This document shows positions 1 through 8,423 of a stretch of 9,284 bases of DNA, one piece after another; the stretch's first letter is position 1, and every line of letters begins with the position of its first letter. The notes beneath the pieces were generated by a model. The model saw only the letters and a list, made by a program, of their open reading frames with translations, was not told where the DNA came from and made no database searches. Made by a program: the position numbers and the translations under genes. The stretch comes from Spirochaeta sp. GTDB taxonomy: Bacteria > Spirochaetota > Spirochaetia > DSM-2461. The stretch covers positions 1-9,284 of the forward strand of contig DAOVYP010000057.1 of NCBI GenBank assembly GCA_030635565.1, read 5' to 3'.

Positions 1-1227
1 CTCCCGTCGGTAGTCGCAACTCCTCTGCCTGAGAAACCTTTTCCCTGGAGACTAAATCTTTCTGCTGCATGGTTTACTCAAATCCTGTCTCTGACCGGTT
101 TCACTTTCGCGATATCCTTTATGCCTTTTTATCTGGAAGAACTCGGTATTACCGATCCAGATCGCTTGAAACTCTGGACGGGACTCAATACCGCCTCAAT
201 AGCCTTAGCAATGGGGATTATGGCTCCGCTCTGGGGTCGGTTGGGAGATATAGTCGGACGAAAAGCAATGCTTATTCGTGCCCTGGGAACCGGTGTCGTA
301 ATCGTCCTGGGGATGTCATTCGTTCAGAGCCCGGGTGGACTTCTGGTATTTCGTATCGCCCAGGGACTCTTCACGGGAACCGTTACAGCGGCAAGCGCAC
401 TTGTAGCGGCAGGTACTCCGGAGAACAGGATGCCCTCATCTCTGGGTTTTTTCTCGACATCCACTTTCGTCGGTATTTCCGTTGGGCCGGCACTCGGGGG
501 TCTGGCGGCGGAGCTGTGGGGTTACAGAACGGTATTTCGGATTGGATCGGGAATACTCGCCCTTGGCGTTGCCGCGGTTATCATCTTGATCGTCGAGCCG
601 CCACGTTCTCAGAATTATTCCGAAGAGCGTCGGAGCGGGGTAATGGTAACGATAAAGAGCTTCATCACCCCGATAATCGTATGGTCACTCGTTCTGCTGT
701 TTTTCATGAGAATTACGCGAACAACCACCGGCCCATTTCTGCCCCTTTATGTACGGGAATTCCGGGGGAATGTCATGAGTGGAACCGTGGCCCTGTCCGG
801 AGCCGTAAACGCCGGTGTCGGGTTGGCTTCGGCTCTCGGTGGATGGTTTCTCACCCGACGTGCGGATCATGGCAATCCTATGAGATTCGCAGTCGTATAC
901 GTATTCCTGGCTTTTATCGCTGCCGTCCCCCTGTATTTCCTGAACTCACTCTTCACGTTCTCCGCTTCCTATTTTATCGTCTTTTTCTTCCTCGGAGGTA
1001 TCGAGCCGCTGGTTGTGGCCACGATGGTTCGTGAGGTTTCTTCCGACAATCGAGGATTAATGATCGGGATCCAGGCCACCGTCAAGAGTGCTGCCTGGGC
1101 GATTGCCCCGCTCCTGGGAGCCGGAATTACGATTATCTGGTCTCTGGGGACTCTGTTTCTTGTACTGCCTGTACTCATTCTCATTACCGGGGGGGCAGCG
1201 GTGATACTCTCACGGGTTCATCGGTAA
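1..1227 (+). CDS. MFS drug efflux transporter, MdtG-like (5' end cut by window edge)
   Basis: Major facilitator superfamily exporter of the inner membrane, probably proton-driven multidrug efflux. The reading frame is open from the first base, with no ATG, GTG or TTG before the internal Met codon at 121. The 40 residues before that Met already encode the first membrane helix (about visible residues 20-45), so the true start is left of the window. 408 residues are visible, nearly full length for a 12-helix MFS protein. The helix 2-3 loop has the family's motif A, GRLGDIVGRK (visible residues 79-88). The order of motifs (LYVRE-like segment at the start of the second half, GPALGG after helix 5) resembles E. 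coli MdtG as I remember it. The substrate cannot be told from sequence. It is the only + strand gene, and its last 18 bp overlap the end of folC tail to tail. Confidence 0.85.
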   Translation, partial: LPSVVATPLPEKPFPWRLNLSAAWFTQILSLTGFTFAISFMPFYLEELGITDPDRLKLWTGLNTASIALAMGIMAPLWGRLGDIVGRKAMLIRALGTGVVIVLGMSFVQSPGGLLVFRIAQGLFTGTVTAASALVAAGTPENRMPSSLGFFSTSTFVGISVGPALGGLAAELWGYRTVFRIGSGILALGVAAVIILIVEPPRSQNYSEERRSGVMVTIKSFITPIIVWSLVLLFFMRITRTTTGPFLPLYVREFRGNVMSGTVALSGAVNAGVGLASALGGWFLTRRADHGNPMRFAVVYVFLAFIAAVPLYFLNSLFTFSASYFIVFFFLGGIEPLVVATMVREVSSDNRGLMIGIQATVKSAAWAIAPLLGAGITIIWSLGTLFLVLPVLILITGGAAVILSRVHR

Positions 1228-2595
1228 GGAAGATTCATTAACTATACGGTTCAGATTGGCGATTTCCCCGGCCATATAAAATGATCCTGTCACCAGAATA
1301 GGCCTGTCCCCTCCGGCACGTTTCAATGCTGTCTCCCAGGCTCTCTCCGGCTCCGGTATCAGTGAAACCTCGGCGCCGGTTAGGCGGAAGGATTCCGCCA
1401 CTTCCTCCGGGTTACTTGGCTTGAAGCTGCCCGGCGTACTGATGATGACTTCCTTGAAACGCGGATTGCGGCCTCCGCAGAGTTTCCTCGCCATGGCTCT
1501 GTCATCTTTTCCTTTCCCACTGCCGAACAGGAGGAGAGGCAGGCCGCCTGCAGCTCTTTCCGTCACCTGCGCGAATGCCTCGGCCAGGGCCGTTACGGAA
1601 CGGGCTGTATGGGCACCGTCGATGATGATTACCGGGTCGCGCCTGAGAAAATGGAAACGGCCGGGCAGGCTCACTCCGGCCAAAGTGGATGAGCATTCAC
1701 TGAGATCGGGTTCCAGTTTACGTGAGACAAGTAATGCCAGAGCGGCGTTTTCGGCCTGGATTCGCCCACCCATGGAAAGTTGTATAATTTCCTGTTTGCC
1801 GTCTTTCCAAAGTAACTGCCAGGCGAACTTGCAGTCATCGCACCCGTCGGAGGGGATCTGATTGATGCTTCTGAGACGGGAGGGGAGTTCCGTCAGCCTC
1901 ACGCCGGCCCTGCGGGTCTGTCGCCTGAACTCATGCCGGGGGATAAGGCTCTGACCGGCCGACCAGGCCCGTGTCCCCGGTTTCAGAATCCCGGCCTTTT
2001 CGGCGGTGATTTGCTTCAGCGTGTTACCGAGTATCTCGGTATGTTCCATTTCGATGGGAGTGAATACCACGGCCTCGGGCCTGTCGATGATGTTGGTAGC
2101 GTCCAGGCGGCCGCCGAGGCCGGTTTCAAGAACTGCAGTGTCGCAGCCTGTCTCCCGGAAGAGCAGGAAGGCGAAGAGGGTGAGGAGTTCGAATGTGGTG
2201 GCCCCGCCTTCTCCGGGTAGATCTTTTTCATGTTCAGGAAGCTTTTCCAGCAATAAGCGAGCGGTCGCCAGGGCAGTCTCTTCCGGAAAGCTTTCCCCAT
2301 AGATACGGAAGCGTTCCCGGTAATCCACGAGATGCGGAGAGGCGTATACGCCCACCCGGCGACCGGCCGACTTCAGAAGGGCGGCGATATATACGGCGAC
2401 GGACCCTTTTCCCTTGGATCCGGCCAGATGGATGGTGCGATACGTGTTCTGGGGATTGCCGTACGCTCCACAGAGCACACGCATTCGATCGAGACGGTAC
2501 ACCCTGTTCGGATTGCCGGGAGGGAGGCCCTTCTCCAGGTTGGTGCGGGACTCAAAGAGAGCGAACACTTCATCAAGAGTCCGGATATTCGGCAT
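1210..2595 (-). CDS. folC: Bifunctional folylpolyglutamate synthase / dihydrofolate synthase
   Basis: Mur-ligase-family cytosolic enzyme that adds glutamate to dihydropteroate and/or reduced folates using ATP. Visible signatures: P-loop GSKGKGS at residues 59-65 (family norm GTNGKGS), SPHL and RERFRI at 87-98, ETGLGGRLDATN at 157-168, the Mg-ligand region EMEHTEILG around His185, EKAGI near 199-203, PGRFH at 311-315, IDGAHT at 325-330 and VTGSFYMAGE near 436-444. At 461 residues it is slightly longer than the usual 420-440. I start it at the ATG at 2595, which lies 7 bp after the HisD-like stop and has AGAGAGG about 11 nt upstream. A start at 2631 would add 12 residues overlapping the upstream gene and lacks a convincing ribosome binding site. 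It is probably translated from the same mRNA as the HisD-like gene. Whether both synthase activities are present cannot be decided from motifs alone. Confidence 0.93.
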   Translation of the reverse strand: MPNIRTLDEVFALFESRTNLEKGLPPGNPNRVYRLDRMRVLCGAYGNPQNTYRTIHLAGSKGKGSVAVYIAALLKSAGRRVGVYASPHLVDYRERFRIYGESFPEETALATARLLLEKLPEHEKDLPGEGGATTFELLTLFAFLLFRETGCDTAVLETGLGGRLDATNIIDRPEAVVFTPIEMEHTEILGNTLKQITAEKAGILKPGTRAWSAGQSLIPRHEFRRQTRRAGVRLTELPSRLRSINQIPSDGCDDCKFAWQLLWKDGKQEIIQLSMGGRIQAENAALALLVSRKLEPDLSECSSTLAGVSLPGRFHFLRRDPVIIIDGAHTARSVTALAEAFAQVTERAAGGLPLLLFGSGKGKDDRAMARKLCGGRNPRFKEVIISTPGSFKPSNPEEVAESFRLTGAEVSLIPEPERAWETALKRAGGDRPILVTGSFYMAGEIANLNRIVNESSLPMNP

Positions 2596-2602
2596 TGGGT
2601 TG

Positions 2603-3934
2603 TCAGCCTCTCTTATCTGTGCTGCCGGCATCTTCAGCCGGTTTCCATTCGGTCAGGGCCCGCTGATGGGCGGGGAATCCTTCATATTCCGCCAGCGCGG
2701 CGGCATGGGATCGGAGGTCAGTTAAACCGGTTTCAGACATGTAGACGACGCTGGAGCGTTTCTTGAAATCACCTACAGATACGCCGGACCAGGTACGGGC
2801 ATTGCCTCCGGTTGGTAGAACGGCGTTGGCACCCACCGAGTAGTTGGCTGCCGAGAAGGGCACGTTGTTCCCCAGGAGTATTTCCCCGGCATTGGTGATG
2901 AGTCCCAGTGTGGCGAACGGGTCTGCGGTGCGGATCTGGAGATGTTCTGTGGCGAAACGATTTGCCAGTTCGGCTCCCTCTTCGATGCTGTCCACGATGA
3001 GTATGCCGCCGTAGCCTGATAAGACATCGGAAACAAAGGTTCGTCGGGGTTCCGGTAACGCGTCTCCCAGTTCAGAGAGATGCTTGCTGACCTCTTGCGC
3101 CAGTCGATCTGAGTCCGTGATGAGAAGTACCGAGGAGTCCGAACCGTGCTCGGCTTCCACCAGGAGATTTCTGGCGACATCCCGGGGATCAGGTGTTGCA
3201 TCGGACAGGATGATAGACTCGGAAGGACCGGCGGGGAGGCCGCAGTCCAGAACATCCCCCAGCAGGCGCTTGGCTGCCGCGACGTATTTGCTCCCCGGGC
3301 CGAGGCATTTATCCACCTTTTTTACCGATTCGGTACCGTAGGCCAGGGCGGCCCAGGCCTGGGCTCCGCCTATGGCGTAAACTTCGTCGACACCGCAGAG
3401 GCGGGCCGTATACAGACAGGCCGCATCCACACGGCCTTTTTCATCGGGAGGGCTGGCCATGGCGATACGCTTGACGCCGGGCTTCTGAGGAGGAACGGCC
3501 ATCAGGTAGAGCATCGAGGGAAAGCTGCCCCTGGCCCTGGGGACGTAGAATGCCGCCGAATCGATGGGGCCTGTGCGTTCACCGGCCATGATACCCGGAC
3601 GGATCTCCTTCCAATGCAGGCCGTCGGGTTCCTGGTCGGCGTGATAGCGGCGGACGTTCTCAACCGAATATTCCAGAGCATCTTTGATTTTCTGTGAAAG
3701 AAGAACATCGGCTTCATCGAAATGGTTTTCGGGAATCCGGATCGGCGCATCGAGGGGGGCTCCATCGAAGCGTTTGTTCAGTTCCTGAAGGGCCTTATCG
3801 CCTCTGCTGCGGACATCGGAGATGATACCGGCCACCGCATCGCTTACTTCAGCAATGTCGATTTCAGACCGGGAGAGCAGTTTTTCACTATCCTCTCCGC
3901 TGATTTCGGACCAGCGGCGTATGTTTACAGTCAT
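2603..3934 (-). CDS. hisD: Histidinol dehydrogenase family protein with altered metal/substrate residues
   Basis: 443 residues, full length for the HisD family (E. coli HisD is 434). Family hallmarks seen: GGAQA (189-193), GPGSKYVAAAKR (212-223), AGPSES (235-240), the catalytic Glu-His pair TEHL (E330, H331), VLPTGG (372-377) and PAHQRAL with H423. The start is the ATG at 3934, with GGGAGG 7 nt upstream; the frame opens 16 codons earlier, at 3982, without a good site. Compared with E. coli HisD as I recall it, zinc ligand Gln259 is Glu260, zinc ligand Asp360 is Asn364 and imidazole-contacting His367 is Ala371, while zinc ligands His263 and His423 remain. True HisD oxidises L-histidinol to histidine with NAD. 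These changes make a related NAD-dependent alcohol dehydrogenase equally possible. No other his gene is in the window. FHA lies 54 bp upstream and folC 7 bp downstream on the same strand. Confidence 0.85.
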   Translation of the reverse strand: MTVNIRRWSEISGEDSEKLLSRSEIDIAEVSDAVAGIISDVRSRGDKALQELNKRFDGAPLDAPIRIPENHFDEADVLLSQKIKDALEYSVENVRRYHADQEPDGLHWKEIRPGIMAGERTGPIDSAAFYVPRARGSFPSMLYLMAVPPQKPGVKRIAMASPPDEKGRVDAACLYTARLCGVDEVYAIGGAQAWAALAYGTESVKKVDKCLGPGSKYVAAAKRLLGDVLDCGLPAGPSESIILSDATPDPRDVARNLLVEAEHGSDSSVLLITDSDRLAQEVSKHLSELGDALPEPRRTFVSDVLSGYGGILIVDSIEEGAELANRFATEHLQIRTADPFATLGLITNAGEILLGNNVPFSAANYSVGANAVLPTGGNARTWSGVSVGDFKKRSSVVYMSETGLTDLRSHAAALAEYEGFPAHQRALTEWKPAEDAGSTDKRG

Positions 3935-3945
3935 GGAGCATCCTC
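3935..3945 (-). promoter_or_regulatory. Ribosome binding site that fixes the hisD-like start
   Basis: Read on the - strand, GGGAGG lies 7 nt before the ATG at 3934. This is the strongest initiation signal near the 5' end of this frame and decides against the longer reading from 3982. Confidence 0.7.
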
Positions 3946-3970
3946 CCAAGGGTGTATAAGAAATAGACGA

Positions 3971-3988
3971 CCGACAATTCATTGCCGG
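3971..3988 (-). other. Short hairpin directly after the FHA stop codon
   Basis: On the - strand an 8-nt arm CCGGCAAT is followed by GA and ATTGTCGG. This folds as about 7 bp, including one G-U pair, with a TGAA loop, and it abuts the TAG of the FHA gene. A pyrimidine-rich but not poly-T stretch follows, so it could be a weak terminator, a processing or stability element, or chance. It is the only structure I see in the 54-bp FHA-hisD gap. Confidence 0.35.
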
Positions 3989-4330
3989 CTAAATCAGTGA
4001 GACTTCGATCCGACCGCCCAGTTTAATGATGTCTTTTGGTCCGAGACGTACGGACTTCCCGGGACGGAGGCGTTTGTCGTTCACCCATGTACCGTTGGTA
4101 CTTCCGGCATCCTCGATGTACCAGCTGTTTCTGATCCGGTGAACGATGCAGTGAATACGGGATACCAGGGGATCATCCACCCTGATTATGTTGCCTCTGT
4201 CCCGACCGATGGTCATCTCGTCGGTGAGTCGGACACGCTTGCCGTTATGGACCAGAAACCTGAGTTCTTTCTTGGGAATCCGGGACAATCTTCGGCCAAC
4301 CGGGCTTTTTCCTGAAATGGTTTCGTCCAT
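3989..4330 (-). CDS. Small FHA-domain protein
   Basis: 113-residue cytosolic protein that is little more than one forkhead-associated domain, a phosphothreonine-binding module. The residues that mark an FHA fold are present in order: TIGR at 40-43, SRIH at 57-60 and STNGTWVN at 77-84, preceded by about 30 basic residues with no known domain. There is no signal peptide or membrane segment. The start at 4330 is well supported by AAGGAG 6 nt upstream. Stand-alone FHA proteins usually read the output of Ser/Thr kinases, but no kinase or phosphatase is in the window, so the partner is unknown. It heads the probable FHA - hisD-like - folC unit. I see no link in the sequence between FHA signalling and either downstream enzyme, so co-transcription may be its only connection to them. 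Confidence 0.88.
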   Translation of the reverse strand: MDETISGKSPVGRRLSRIPKKELRFLVHNGKRVRLTDEMTIGRDRGNIIRVDDPLVSRIHCIVHRIRNSWYIEDAGSTNGTWVNDKRLRPGKSVRLGPKDIIKLGGRIEVSLI

Positions 4331-4529: not shown

Positions 4530-5243
4530 TCAGCGGATTATAATTTCGGTTTCCGTCTCGATTTCTCTCGAAATACGTCTCAATTCGTCCTCGTCCGGTG
4601 CTGCGAGCCTGCTCCATAACGGATTCAGGGTGGTGCCGGGCTTGTAGGGCTGCCAGACCCACCTTGGGGCCGATGTCGTCAGGGGGACGAGATTTTTCAG
4701 GACAGTTTCATCCACAAGCGGCGGAACCACGGTGGTGCGAATCTCATAGGAAATTCCGGATTCGGCCAATAATGCCATGGTTCCCGACAGGAGCAATTCC
4801 GCCGATTTCATCCCCGTTCCCTTCCAGCCCAGCTCATGGTAACGCCCGGGAATGGTTTTCAAATCCATGGCGACATAGTCCAGCAGGCGGGATTCCAGGT
4901 ATGGAGCAAGGATATCGGGAAGCAGGCCGGCGGTATCCAGCTTCACCGGCAATTTGAACTCTTCCGCGAGGCTTATGATTTCCGGGAGCAGTGGATGCAG
5001 CAATGCCTCACCGCCGGAGATTGCCAGGCCGCCGAGCAATCCGGCACGCCGAATCAGAAACCTGCGGAATCCCCGGATGTCCTCGTTGAATACGTCATCA
5101 TTTATTTTGAAGTCCGGTTCAACAAATTCCGGATTATGGCAATAGGGGCAGCGGAGGTGACAGCCGGGAAGGAACACCGTAGCGGCCACTCTCCCGGGAT
5201 AGTCCAGGAGAGTGGTTTTAACCAGGGCGAATCGGTTTTTCAA
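4530..5243 (-). CDS. nrdG: Anaerobic ribonucleotide reductase activating protein (radical SAM)
   Basis: 237-residue radical-SAM activase, of the longer NrdG type rather than the short E. coli type. It reductively cleaves S-adenosylmethionine at a [4Fe-4S] cluster and abstracts hydrogen from the class III reductase glycine to make the glycyl radical. Seen directly: KTTLLDYPG (9-17), cluster motif C28-x3-C32-x2-C35 within GCHLRCPYCHNP, and the SAM-binding SGGEA at 76-80. The start I accept is a TTG at 5243, because the conserved KTTLLDYPG block requires the frame to begin about here and no in-frame ATG or GTG lies just upstream. TTG overlaps the TGA of the upstream gene by 4 nt (TTGA), and I see no good Shine-Dalgarno before it, so translation probably depends on coupling. 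Its substrate glycine should be Gly33 of the neighbouring 179-residue protein, because NrdD here carries no radical motif. Confidence 0.93.
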   Translation of the reverse strand: MKNRFALVKTTLLDYPGRVAATVFLPGCHLRCPYCHNPEFVEPDFKINDDVFNEDIRGFRRFLIRRAGLLGGLAISGGEALLHPLLPEIISLAEEFKLPVKLDTAGLLPDILAPYLESRLLDYVAMDLKTIPGRYHELGWKGTGMKSAELLLSGTMALLAESGISYEIRTTVVPPLVDETVLKNLVPLTTSAPRWVWQPYKPGTTLNPLWSRLAAPDEDELRRISREIETETEIIIR

Positions 5244-5779
5244 GCGCCGACGACGGCGGAAATTCCGATCTGGGTTTCCAATGCCGGGACGGATGTTCCC
5301 CGGCCGGTTTCCCTTCCTTCTCCGTCAAGGAATACGACGGTTGGGGCGGCGGTGATGTCATAACGGACGGCTTCATGCATGCCGGATTCTCTGTCAACGT
5401 CAATTCCCCGGCCTTCGAGTCCTGAATTTCTGAGCCAGTCGGCCACTGGAGGGCAGCTGGGACATGTTTTCCGGTAGAAGTAGAGGTAATTGACCGGTTT
5501 TCTGTTACCGGCGAATAGAAGTTCGTGCTGTGCCTTTTTACCCTTAACCAGCGAGAGAGTCGGAGAAATCTTTACGGCATCGACTGGTTCGGGTCGCCCG
5601 GAATCGAAATCCGAATAGTTCAGTCTTTCGCCGTATTCTTCCTTTTTTCCCTTATTCCAGTTTCTCACCGAACGGTAGTATCCGACGATACGGGAATAGA
5701 CTTCCGTTTCCAGCCCTTTTACTTGAGTCTTCTGCACTTTGAGTTCTTCAAGGCGGGTGTTGATCTGGTCCAGTGTCAT
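5240..5779 (-). CDS. Separate glycyl-radical domain of class III RNR fused to a thioredoxin-fold (CPSC) domain
   Basis: 179 residues. Residues 1-24 are charged and helical in character. Residues 25-55 match the C-terminal end of NrdD proteins: TEVYSRIVGYYRSV followed by WNKGKKEEY, with R30-I-V-G33-Y34 as the glycyl-radical motif. A linker of about 35 residues leads to a thioredoxin/glutaredoxin-like domain (about 85-175) with active site C106-P-S-C109 and the cis-proline region AAPTVVF (P146). I infer that it supplies both the radical site and the thiol reductant to NrdD; NrdG would charge Gly33. The ATG overlaps the nrdD TGA (ATGA) and has GGAGG 7 nt upstream, inside nrdD codons, so it looks like a genuine independent start. 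The 3' end overlaps nrdG by 4 nt. Alternative: the C-terminus of a single NrdD chain broken by a one-base error in the A run at the junction. Confidence 0.85.
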   Translation of the reverse strand: MTLDQINTRLEELKVQKTQVKGLETEVYSRIVGYYRSVRNWNKGKKEEYGERLNYSDFDSGRPEPVDAVKISPTLSLVKGKKAQHELLFAGNRKPVNYLYFYRKTCPSCPPVADWLRNSGLEGRGIDVDRESGMHEAVRYDITAAPTVVFLDGEGRETGRGTSVPALETQIGISAVVGA

Positions 5780-7887
5780 TTGGCGGCCTCCTCCAGTTCT
5801 CTTTTCCTGGTTTCAAGATCGGCGATTTCCCGGTCTAACGCCGATTCCTGCTTCATGCGGCATTTCGGACATTGAAAATGCTCACCCTCGAGATAGCCGT
5901 GGACGGGACAGACGGAGAAAACCGGAGAAATGGTGAAGCAGGGGAGACGGTATCCGGTCGCGATGGTTTTCACCAGTTCGCGACAGGCCTCCCAGTCCTT
6001 GATACGCTCTCCCAGAAATCCGTGAAACACGGTTCCTCCGGTATATTTTGTCTGCAGTTCGTCCTGCAGGTCGAGGGCATCGAAAATATCTTCCGTGAAA
6101 TCCACCGGCAGCTGGGTGGAGTTCGTGTAATAGGGATCGTCGGTCCCTGCGGTCTTGATATCCGGATAATGCTTTTTATCGTGTCGGGCCAGGCGGTAGC
6201 TGGTGCTTTCGGCGGGTGTTGCCTCCAGGTTGAAGAGCTCGCCGGTTTCTTCCTGATAGTCGGCCATGCGTCCCCGCATGAAGTCCAGGATGTCCAGGGC
6301 AAAATTCCGGGCCGTTGTATCGATGATGGGACTGCCGGTGAAATTGATGAGGCATTCGTTCATTCCCACCAGTCCGATGGTGTTGAAATGGTTATTCAGA
6401 TTCTTCAGATACCGTTTGGTATAGGGAAAGAGTCCCGCCTGGAGAAGATGGTTGATTACTTTGCGCTTGGCTGTCAGGGATTCGGCGGCCAGATCCATTG
6501 TTCGGCCCAATCTACCGTAAAAATCGGCTTCAGATGACGAGAGGTAACCGATACGGGGCAGGTTTATGGTGACCACACCGAGGGATCCGGTGAATTCATC
6601 TGAACCGAAGAGTCCTCCGCCCCGCTTTCTCAGCTCACGTTTGTCCAGCCGCAAACGGCAGCACATGGATCTGACATCCTCGGGATTCAGATCAGAATTG
6701 ATGAAGTTCTGGAAGTAGGGTGTTCCGAACTTGGAGGTCATTTCGAAGAGAAGCCTGGCGTTTGGACTGTCCCATTCGAAATCCCTGGTGATGTTGTATG
6801 TCGGAATGGGATAGGCAAACCCCCGACCGTTGGCATCTCCTTCAAGCATGAGCTGAATGAAGGCCTTGTTGATCATGTCCATTTCGGCGCGGCAGTCACC
6901 GTAAGAGAAATCCTGTTCATTACCCCCGACGACGGCGGGGCGCTCTTTCAGATCCGTGGGGCAGACCCAGTCCATGGTGATGTTGGTGAAGGGAGCCTGG
7001 CTTCCCCAGCGGGATGGGGTGTTCACACCGAAAATGAAACTCTGCAAGGCCTGTTTAACGGCTTTAAAGCTCAGCTTATCGGCTCTCACGAACGGTGCCA
7101 GGTAGGTGTCGAAGCTGGAAAGGGCCTGTGCACCGGCCCATTCATTCTGCATGATTCCCAGAAAATTGACGATCTGGAACATCAGCGTGGAGAGATGGGC
7201 GGCTGGACTGGAGGATATCTTTTCCGGGACTCCGCCCAGCCCTTCAGAGATGAGCTGCCTCAAAGACCAGCCGGCGCAGTAACCTGAGAACATGGACAGA
7301 TCGTGGATGTGCATGGCTCCCGATCGGTGGGCTTCGGACACTTCCGGGGAATAGACGTTCTTCAGCCAGTAATTAGCGGTGATGGTGCCTGAGTTATGGA
7401 GTATGAGTCCGCCGAGAGAAAAATTCACATTGGCGTTTTCATTCACCCGCCAGTCGGATCCGGAGAGATAGCCGTCCATGGTACGGTCAACATCCAGCAT
7501 CAGGCTTTTAGCGTCTCTGACGGCCTCCCGCCGGGAGCGGTAGAGAATATAAGCTCTGACAAGGGATGTCTCACCGTATTCGATGAGGGCGGATTCAACC
7601 AGATCCTGAATTTCTTCAACCGCCGGCAGCGAATTCGGGTGGCGATCATTCATGAAATTCCGGAGGGATGATTCAACCCGGTCGGTGATTTCTGCCGGGT
7701 CGGAATCACTGTTTACGGCTTCGACGGCCAAGGCGACGGCTTTTTTAATTCGGGAACGGTCGTACCTGACAACACGGCCGTCACGTTTGACGATCCGTTT
7801 GATTGGAAAATCCGCGACTGAGATGTTCTGCTCTGTGGTAACACCTATGAGCGCTTTCCAATCGGTTGTCCGGGTCTGCCCATCCAT
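5776..7887 (-). CDS. nrdD: Class III (anaerobic) ribonucleoside-triphosphate reductase, catalytic chain lacking the glycyl-radical segment
   Basis: 703-residue oxygen-sensitive cytosolic enzyme converting NTPs to dNTPs. An N-terminal ATP-cone (about 27-120, KRDGRVVRYDRSRI) gives allosteric control. The ten-stranded barrel follows, with HIHDL (193-197), YCAGWSL with Cys204, the paired cysteines MCCRLRLD (C409, C410) and GMNECL (508-513). The C-terminal zinc site reads C660-x2-H663-x9-C673-x2-C676. NrdDs I know, such as E. coli and T4, continue about 16 residues past the last zinc Cys to the radical glycine. This protein has 27 more residues, rich in Glu, Lys and Leu, then stops without an RVxGY motif. 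The motif is in the next gene. The start at 7887 has AGGAG 5 nt upstream, overlapping the nrdR stop, and nrdR ends 8 bp before. The active-site cysteine set and redoxin partner fit thiol-dependent rather than formate-dependent NrdD types, by inference. Confidence 0.93.
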   Translation of the reverse strand: MDGQTRTTDWKALIGVTTEQNISVADFPIKRIVKRDGRVVRYDRSRIKKAVALAVEAVNSDSDPAEITDRVESSLRNFMNDRHPNSLPAVEEIQDLVESALIEYGETSLVRAYILYRSRREAVRDAKSLMLDVDRTMDGYLSGSDWRVNENANVNFSLGGLILHNSGTITANYWLKNVYSPEVSEAHRSGAMHIHDLSMFSGYCAGWSLRQLISEGLGGVPEKISSSPAAHLSTLMFQIVNFLGIMQNEWAGAQALSSFDTYLAPFVRADKLSFKAVKQALQSFIFGVNTPSRWGSQAPFTNITMDWVCPTDLKERPAVVGGNEQDFSYGDCRAEMDMINKAFIQLMLEGDANGRGFAYPIPTYNITRDFEWDSPNARLLFEMTSKFGTPYFQNFINSDLNPEDVRSMCCRLRLDKRELRKRGGGLFGSDEFTGSLGVVTINLPRIGYLSSSEADFYGRLGRTMDLAAESLTAKRKVINHLLQAGLFPYTKRYLKNLNNHFNTIGLVGMNECLINFTGSPIIDTTARNFALDILDFMRGRMADYQEETGELFNLEATPAESTSYRLARHDKKHYPDIKTAGTDDPYYTNSTQLPVDFTEDIFDALDLQDELQTKYTGGTVFHGFLGERIKDWEACRELVKTIATGYRLPCFTISPVFSVCPVHGYLEGEHFQCPKCRMKQESALDREIADLETRKRELEEAAK
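5787..5794 (-). promoter_or_regulatory. Ribosome binding site inside nrdD for the radical/redoxin gene
   Basis: The - strand reads GGAGGAGG, ending 7 nt before the ATG at 5779. These bases are also nrdD codons for the final Glu-Glu. The strong, well-spaced site supports deliberate initiation of the downstream protein, together with termination-reinitiation at ATGA. Confidence 0.7.
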
Positions 7888-7895
7888 GAGTACTC

Positions 7896-8399
7896 CTAAA
7901 AAAGTTCGCCGTCGGGCTGGTTTTCCGAACCTTGAGGCTTCAGGTCCGGTCCGAGATCGTCAATCACCTGGATAAACTCTTCTACATCCTCAAATTGGCG
8001 GTATACCGAAGCGAATCGGACGTATGCGACTTTATCAAGGGAGAAGAGATTCTCCAAAACCAGATCGCCGATGGTTTCGCTCCGAATTTCGTGTGTGGAA
8101 CGGCTCATCATGGCCGCTTCATCCTCAATACGATGAAGGAGTTCTTCAACGGCTACATGGGCGACAGGGCGTTTCTCAATGGCCCGCTGTACTCCATACT
8201 CGATTTTTTTCAGATCGAAATTTTCCCGACGGCCGGACCTCTTAATCACCATAATGGGCACTTCTTCAATATGCTCATATGAGGTAAAGCGGTATCCGCA
8301 ACCGATGCACTCTCTGCGACGGCGGATGGTGGTACCGCTCTGATTCTGCCTGGACTCAATAACTTTGTCGTCGGTTTTTCCGCATAACGGACATTTCAC
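7896..8399 (-). CDS. nrdR: Transcriptional repressor of ribonucleotide reductase genes
   Basis: 167-residue NrdR, a nucleotide-sensing repressor that binds tandem NrdR boxes when loaded with ATP/dATP. The zinc ribbon is C3-x2-C6 (KCPLC) and C31-x2-C34 (CIGC), with RRRREC between. The ATP-cone spans about 48-140 (IKRSGRRENFDLKKI onward). Length is slightly above the usual 150-160 because of a polar tail from about residue 150. I choose the GTG at 8399 because NrdR proteins start with M-K-C-P, and because GGGAGGGG lies 11 nt upstream. A TTG at 8420 would add seven residues but sits at the edge of that purine-rich site. It heads the operon and is preceded by two NrdR-box-like repeats, indicating that it controls its own synthesis together with nrdD, the radical/redoxin protein and nrdG. 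Confidence 0.95.
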   Translation of the reverse strand: MKCPLCGKTDDKVIESRQNQSGTTIRRRRECIGCGYRFTSYEHIEEVPIMVIKRSGRRENFDLKKIEYGVQRAIEKRPVAHVAVEELLHRIEDEAAMMSRSTHEIRSETIGDLVLENLFSLDKVAYVRFASVYRQFEDVEEFIQVIDDLGPDLKPQGSENQPDGELF

Positions 8400-8423
8400 G
8401 CCGAGTCGTACCCCTCCCAAAAA

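Follow-up and report, generated by a model that had tools for sequence, protein, structure and literature searches.

Class III ribonucleotide reductases (RNRs) described in the literature that we examined carry the radical glycine within the catalytic chain, NrdD. We analysed a stretch of 9,284 nucleotides from Spirochaeta sp. (GenBank assembly GCA_030635565.1, contig DAOVYP010000057.1; hereafter the window), in which this enzyme appears to be divided between nrdD and a small downstream gene encoding 179 amino acids. With the NrdD/NrdG systems of E. coli, T4, T. maritima and P. copri, the window system shares the barrel, the ATP-cone, the zinc-site region, the motif of the glycyl-radical domain (GRD) and the NrdG activase, and with the T. 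maritima side of the family it shares a double-cysteine finger loop. Unlike in those systems, the GRD here is encoded by a gene of its own, together with a thioredoxin-fold domain.

Several known systems resemble parts of this arrangement. The class II RNR of Pseudomonas aeruginosa, NrdJa/NrdJb, also consists of two chains (PMC4520616, PMC9669993), but it is B12-dependent and has no GRD to separate. A separate radical subunit with its own redoxin reductant occurs in class I, where NrdB of Facklamia ignava is fused to a glutaredoxin (PMC6187632); there, the cofactor is a metal and the redoxin is N-terminal. GrcA (YfiD) and T4 Y06I, spare parts of pyruvate formate-lyase (PFL), are small separate proteins carrying a GRD in trans (PMC8683613). 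GrcA, however, is of the PFL type and mends an enzyme already equipped with a radical domain, whereas the window protein is of the NrdD type and the genome search described below found no intact NrdD. Phage nrdD genes also occur in pieces, in connection with introns, inteins and homing endonucleases; those discussed (PMC3653736) are mobile-element interruptions or broken coding regions, with no conserved separation of a radical domain. In the open-licence literature we found no account of a class III RNR whose radical domain sits on a chain of its own, although the subscription literature may mention one.

The four genes of the window locus lie on the minus strand in the order nrdR, nrdD, small gene, nrdG. 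The Pfam NRDD family (PF13597) matches NrdD over profile positions 1-532 of 562 (E 4.4e-173) and the small protein over positions 533-562 (E 1.7e-7, above the gathering score); the cut therefore sits at the start of the GRD. NrdD stops 27 residues past its CPKC motif and contains no RVxGY-type motif, which the small protein carries instead as RIVGY (residues 30-34). The genes share four nucleotides (ATGA) in different frames, and a GGAGG lies 7 nucleotides ahead of the small gene. A preliminary description had read these same features, all present in the sequence, as a division between a catalytic chain and a distinct radical-bearing chain; the complementary NRDD halves, and the separate GRD open reading frame (ORF) in every relative whose NrdD ends at this point, show this split to be real and conserved. 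It was right about the GRD but overlooked the thioredoxin-fold domain at about residues 96-176, which alters the likely function of the chain. The best explanation, to which we assign a probability of about 0.85, is an obligate two-chain class III RNR, in which an NrdD lacking the GRD would work with a 179-residue partner that carries the GRD and a thioredoxin fold, supplying the radical in trans and a built-in reductant. At the level of sequence, the enzyme is encoded by separate, overlapping genes with complementary profile halves, and the same arrangement is present in most relatives of the class that have an NrdD.

To place the split among relatives, PF13597 was searched in the window's own genome and in 60 relatives drawn from its genus, family and class (61 genomes), 50 of which gave an NRDD match. 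For 40 of these 50 (39 relatives plus the own genome) the match in NrdD stopped at profile positions 530-539; all 40 also had a GRD match, and reading the ORFs placed it on a separate ORF in 40 of 40, unlinked from nrdD in G049. The loci read for this were the window, L006-L032 (with L127 for G049), L218, L231 and L233-L242. A thioredoxin-like domain is present on 36 of the 40 GRD ORFs (one is cut by a contig end) and missing from those of G035, G047, G049 and G059. The other 10 genomes comprise three with single-chain NrdD-GRD-thioredoxin proteins (L003-L005), five with one unbroken match (G025, G027, G028, G042, G054), one with a fragment (G040) and one cut by contig ends (G007, L232). A second, full-length NrdD accompanies the split form in three genomes (G010, G015, G019); the PF13597 search found no intact NrdD in 37 of the 40, some of which are incomplete. 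It likewise found no second NrdD in the source genome of the window, which is 77.75% complete in 589 contigs, so that the absence is not certain. The lack of an intact NrdD in this search makes the small chain appear to be an obligate subunit. As judged from these genomes, the split arrangement is not special to this organism: neither of two possibilities raised beforehand, that relatives are all single-chain or that a complete NrdD stands elsewhere in this genome, agrees with the 40 split genomes among 50 and the negative search. Three Spirochaetia stretches, L127, L128 and L129 (from G049, G089 and G181), have a GRD gene without a thioredoxin domain beside nrdG and no nrdD in the stretch. 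In G049, nrdD is located elsewhere than the GRD gene.

A wider set of 111 loci, the window and L003-L112 with start codons picked by script, gave a view of the junction itself. L033-L112 were selected by similarity to the small protein (80 of 575 confirmed loci) and at least seven pairs repeat one contig, so only the 61-genome set speaks to frequency; all 80 carry spirochaete titles, including Treponema bryantii, T. lecithinolyticum and Candidatus Marispirochaeta. The GRD was found in 110 of the 111 loci, of which 100 are split, four are fused and six have no nrdD end on the locus. At 89 of the 100 split loci nrdR lies upstream and nrdG downstream (eight have no nrdR and three no nrdG on the stretch read). 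The two genes stand in all three relative frames (44, 29 and 27 loci), with stop-to-start offsets from -23 to +306 nucleotides.

This variation bears on two explanations that would leave the enzyme as one chain. A sequencing or assembly frameshift in an ordinary nrdD would be consistent with a four-nucleotide overlap of two genes in different frames, but the GRD ORF is separate in all 40 genomes whose NrdD ends at this point, the wider set has all three frames with gaps of up to 306 nucleotides, and the junction adds helices that the single-chain proteins examined do not have. We reject it on these grounds as scarcely credible; a check for a frameshift pattern among relatives revealed none, with frames and gaps varying freely. 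Programmed frameshifting or stop read-through yielding a single polypeptide might be entertained for L008, L011 and L014, where the NrdD stop is followed directly by an in-frame GRD. Across the 100 split loci, however, stops are mixed (TAA at 67, TGA at 27, TAG at 6) along with the frames, and the small gene has ribosome-binding-like sites and its own starts (ATG at 96). On the stops, frames and starts of these loci we reject this explanation as well, as very improbable.

The added helices are apparent when the break is compared with single-chain proteins. In nine of the ten examined, the last CxxC is separated from the R of the radical motif by 8 residues, and in the other by 9. Among 102 ORFs of split-type NrdDs, 101 instead extend 21-39 residues beyond the last CxxC (none is readable in L052), with a conserved, helix-like tail of the form CPKC..E..L...I..LE.EK..L, and the small chain of the split type opens with a further helix ahead of TEVY. 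An AlphaFold2 model of the L014 pair, joined as if by read-through, has long helices at residues 674-703 and 714-743 (mean predicted local distance difference test (pLDDT) score 77.2, predicted template-modelling (pTM) score 0.65).

Alignment with T. maritima NrdD shows that NrdD keeps its catalytic residues, Cys204 and the MCCR finger loop, and the model of the relative L014 matches class III structures in Foldseek. In 18 aligned rows including the window, the small-chain block E26, Y28, RIVGYYR 30-36, W41-N42, G44-K45, E48 and R52 is invariant, so the GRD match is not due to chance; over 52 rows the GRD block is again invariant, as are C106, C109 and P146 of the thioredoxin-fold domain. The best Foldseek matches of that domain are thioredoxins (E 4.2e-5), and a PDB sequence search gives the same domain; Pfam glutaredoxin (PF00462) matches the chain at E 0.002, under the family cut-off. 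No PFL-type glycyl-radical family is among the four Pfam matches of the small chain (up to E 10). Modelled alone with AlphaFold2, it shows a helix at residues 3-18, short strands round the GRD and, after a disordered linker, a thioredoxin fold predicted with confidence (mean pLDDT 73.0, pTM 0.46). The ratio of non-synonymous to synonymous substitution rates (dN/dS) is 0.05-0.075 for nrdD (four unsaturated pairs of six) and 0.09 for the small gene (window versus L015, the only unsaturated pair of six). Both genes are under purifying selection, the small gene being judged from one pair. These results leave little room for a decaying NrdD beside an unrelated redoxin, with no ribonucleotide reduction. 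A class II-type RNR in the same genome speaks for this reading, but NrdD keeps its barrel, finger loop and ATP-cone, its dN/dS is low and the GRD block of the partner does not vary, and we reject gene decay as an explanation with very little to recommend it.

In the two-chain enzyme, the tail helix of NrdD would pair with the first helix of the small chain, and together they would keep the GRD in place at the barrel. NrdG would make the glycyl radical on Gly33, which would pass it to Cys409/Cys410 of the finger loop, and after turnover the CPSC pair may reduce the disulphide formed with Cys204, the counterpart of the Cys125 discussed for T. maritima NrdD (PMC4493059). A role of the CPSC domain as reductant is suggested by the MCCR motif, which is reported to go with either formate or thioredoxin (PMC9669993), and by the class I precedent of a glutaredoxin fused to NrdB, which works as reductant (PMC6187632). 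One grx::nrdD fusion, from Lachnospiraceae, is listed in the same source (PMC6187632), and assays of T. maritima NrdD needed a protein component of cell extract (PMC4493059). In effect, the GRD chain would be a radical subunit in its own right, with a function like that of class I NrdB and with the redoxin attached. Cupriavidus necator H16 offers a genetic precedent, as it has the same kind of split and its NrdDG is essential for complete denitrification (PMC2864759).

Several observations weigh against an obligate two-chain enzyme of this design. MCCR enzymes may use formate instead of thioredoxin (PMC9669993), and the absence of the thioredoxin-like domain from 4 of the 40 split genomes means that it is not essential to the split enzyme. 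Since the window genome also has a class II-type RNR, the split enzyme need not be essential either. The helical hairpin of the L014 model is only suggestive, because the two chains were artificially joined, and the GRD loop of that model is of low confidence (pLDDT 45 and 39, residues 751-770). A single-chain NrdD from Acidiphilium, with 16 residues between the CxxC and the radical motif, is an exception to the 8-residue spacing, and the fused L005 is nested among split rows of the tree described below (branch support 93), so that no simple history fits.

A stronger claim, compatible with two subunits, is that the split serves mainly for renewal: after cleavage by oxygen, the GRD chain would be exchanged for a fresh one and the large chain retained, in the way that GrcA/YfiD restores PFL. 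Oxygen cuts glycyl-radical enzymes at the radical glycine, YfiD repairs PFL, and spare parts for other such enzymes have been speculated on (PMC8683613); the ribosome-binding-like site of the small gene and the eight spirochaete stretches with a GRD-only ORF but no nrdD point the same way. Against this, no intact NrdD to repair was found in this genome or, among the 40 split genomes (several of which are incomplete), in 37, and the overlap with nrdD here suggests coupled rather than excess synthesis of the small chain. The likeness to GrcA drawn in the preliminary description extends to the mechanism, and the reading as a spare part is not supported: GrcA supplements an enzyme already equipped with a radical domain, whereas here the search gave no intact NrdD, which leaves GrcA as a mechanistic analogue only. 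We consider swapping as the main purpose of the split a tentative proposal, somewhat more doubtful than not.

A quick tree of 68 NrdD cores, without plasmid rows, was used to examine the history of the split; its branch support comes from the Shimodaira-Hasegawa-like approximate likelihood ratio test (SH-aLRT) only, 18 of 65 inner branches are open and several branches are long. The single-chain NrdD-GRD-thioredoxin rows L003, L221 and L004 fall outside the split Spirochaetia rows; because of this position, gene fission from a fused ancestor fits as a possible origin of the split Spirochaetia form. The NrdDs of other classes of the phylum that have a GRD-only partner group apart from these, in a clade comprising 13 rows (support 90). 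The tree requires at least three changes between split and fused states.

The second form, with a GRD-only gene, was followed with the A1 profile over 159 genomes of the phylum (E 0.001), and the counts outside the class rest on its table and on the stretches read. The profile matched 83 of the 159 genomes, some through the redoxin-like stretch only. According to the table, the complete two-domain chain is present in 22 genomes and, as two pieces, in one other; outside the class, 39 genomes show a GRD-type match within an open frame no longer than 162 codons. In 14 stretches (L115, L116, L119-L126, L132, L222, L225, L227) nrdD is followed by a GRD-only gene and then nrdG, with a GRD product of about 45-66 amino acids depending on the start chosen; in all 13 of these whose NrdD ends were examined, the zinc region has the form C-x2-H ... 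C-x3-H. Eight further spirochaete loci (L113, L114, L117, L118, L223, L224, L226, L228) have a GRD-only ORF and no nrdD in the stretch; these look like paralogous radical peptides, because G073, G121, G123, G145 and G148 also have a GRD beside nrdD. Database clusters number 3430 for the two-domain chain and at least 7990 (of 7993 scored) for the short form; both counts may include C-terminal fragments of ordinary NrdD at contig ends. Names among the short-form matches listed include Brevinematales and Thermospira aquatica, and further Desulfuromonas acetoxidans and Victivallaceae. Among the two-domain matches, P0075 carries a eukaryote name (Anaeramoeba), for which bacterial carry-over is a guess.

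Spread to further phyla was sampled through plasmids, phages and protein names. Against plasmids, tblastn gave 18 records with the 54-residue GRD of L123 and 29 with that of C. necator. Nine plasmid loci (L245-L253) were read, and six of them are of the split type, the GRD having an ORF to itself: C. necator H16, C. metallidurans CH34, Bradyrhizobium diazoefficiens, Paracoccus ferrooxidans, P. denitrificans and Sulfuricurvum kujiense. The GRD proteins have 58-66 amino acids at the four annotated loci, the gene of C. necator H16 (plasmid pHG1, NC_005241, 253274-253474) encoding 66, and in the four pairs scanned with Pfam the large chain ends at NRDD position 529-532 and the small one covers 530/532-562. 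Among NCBIfam matches up to E 0.01, no model is specific to the short protein. The Geoalkalibacter and Acidiphilium plasmid NrdDs are single-chain, and the Allochromatium vinosum plasmid has a GRD gene but no nrdD within the stretch. The gap in the Acidiphilium multivorum protein (L253:1746-3629), about twice the usual length, may mark a re-fused form.

In IMG/VR, 67 of 80 loci (L133-L212, the best 80 of 478 confirmed) have an NrdD-type GRD on a short ORF, no longer than 250 codons and in most cases below 100, and a single-query search found nrdD in the stretch for only three of the 67 (L138, L156, L161). These viral ORFs are possible phage-borne radical parts for the host NrdD. In L135, L160, L190, L191 and L196, CxxC pairs precede the GRD in short viral proteins, as if a zinc-ribbon-like segment were supplied with the radical loop. 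The ANMV-1 virus (KP703175, L213:3180-3614) encodes a 144-residue 'anaerobic ribonucleoside triphosphate reductase' that consists of a CxxC segment and a GRD rather than a complete reductase; the 69 annotated features include no other RNR, and the virus paper infers an oxygen-sensitive RNR. Taken together, one could imagine that two-subunit class III RNRs with a detachable radical subunit, an anaerobic equivalent of class I NrdB, originated repeatedly: in Spirochaetia with a fused thioredoxin, so that a single small chain would both initiate catalysis and recharge it, in other spirochaete classes with a peptide of 45-66 residues, and on plasmids such as that of C. necator H16, with free phage peptides acting as trans-acting cofactors that take over host NrdD. 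We regard this wider scenario as unlikely in its entirety.

The features of the window locus are collected in Table 1. The start codon of nrdG is TTG and overlaps the stop of the small gene. Downstream of nrdG on the same strand, positions 1210-4330 encode an FHA-domain protein, a histidinol dehydrogenase and a Mur-ligase-type protein. The class II-type RNR of the same genome (L244) has an NPCGE motif and a cysteine-rich C-terminus.

Table 1. Coordinates of the split class III RNR locus in the window, with the basis of each assignment
Feature	Position	Strand	Basis or remark
nrdR, RNR transcription regulator, directly upstream of nrdD	7896..8420	-	TIGR00244, E 3.2e-51
nrdD, catalytic chain, 703 amino acids	5776..7887	-	ATP-cone residues 31-121, class III barrel residues 150-681, without GRD
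ATP-cone of NrdD	7525..7797	-	Pfam PF03477, E 2.5e-20
NrdD Cys204	7276..7278	-	Alignment with Cys125 (beta-A cysteine) of T. maritima NrdD
NrdD finger-loop motif M408-C409-C410-R	6655..6666	-	Double-cysteine class III type (motif classes: PMC9669993)
NrdD C-terminal zinc-site region C660..H663..C673..C676	5857..5910	-	Sequence; zinc role carried over from the family
NrdD C-terminal tail, residues 678-703	5779..5856	-	Predicted helix; conserved in split NrdDs, absent from single-chain relatives examined
GGAGG, Shine-Dalgarno-like site	5787..5791	-	Ends 7 nucleotides before the small-gene ATG
Separate radical-site chain, 179 amino acids	5240..5779	-	N-terminal helix, GRD, linker, thioredoxin-fold domain
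Small-chain N-terminal predicted helix, about residues 1-20	5720..5779	-	AlphaFold2 helix 3-18
GRD of small chain, residues 25-55	5615..5707	-	PF13597 positions 533-562 of 562
RIVGY with Gly33 (residues 30-34 of small chain)	5678-5692	-	Sequence
Thioredoxin-fold domain of small chain, about residues 96-176	5252..5494	-	P146; CPSC at 5453-5464
nrdG, radical S-adenosylmethionine activase (NrdG2, CxxxCxxC)	4530..5243	-	TIGR02495, E 9.8e-42

A conserved separate radical chain makes the handover of a glycyl radical between polypeptides testable, as it does the confinement of oxygen damage to a cheap part and the organisation of activase, radical carrier and reductant. Graded addition of one small protein would also offer a simple way to titrate the loading of the radical. 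The arrangement would also explain short proteins annotated as whole reductases, such as a 66-residue 'nrdD'.

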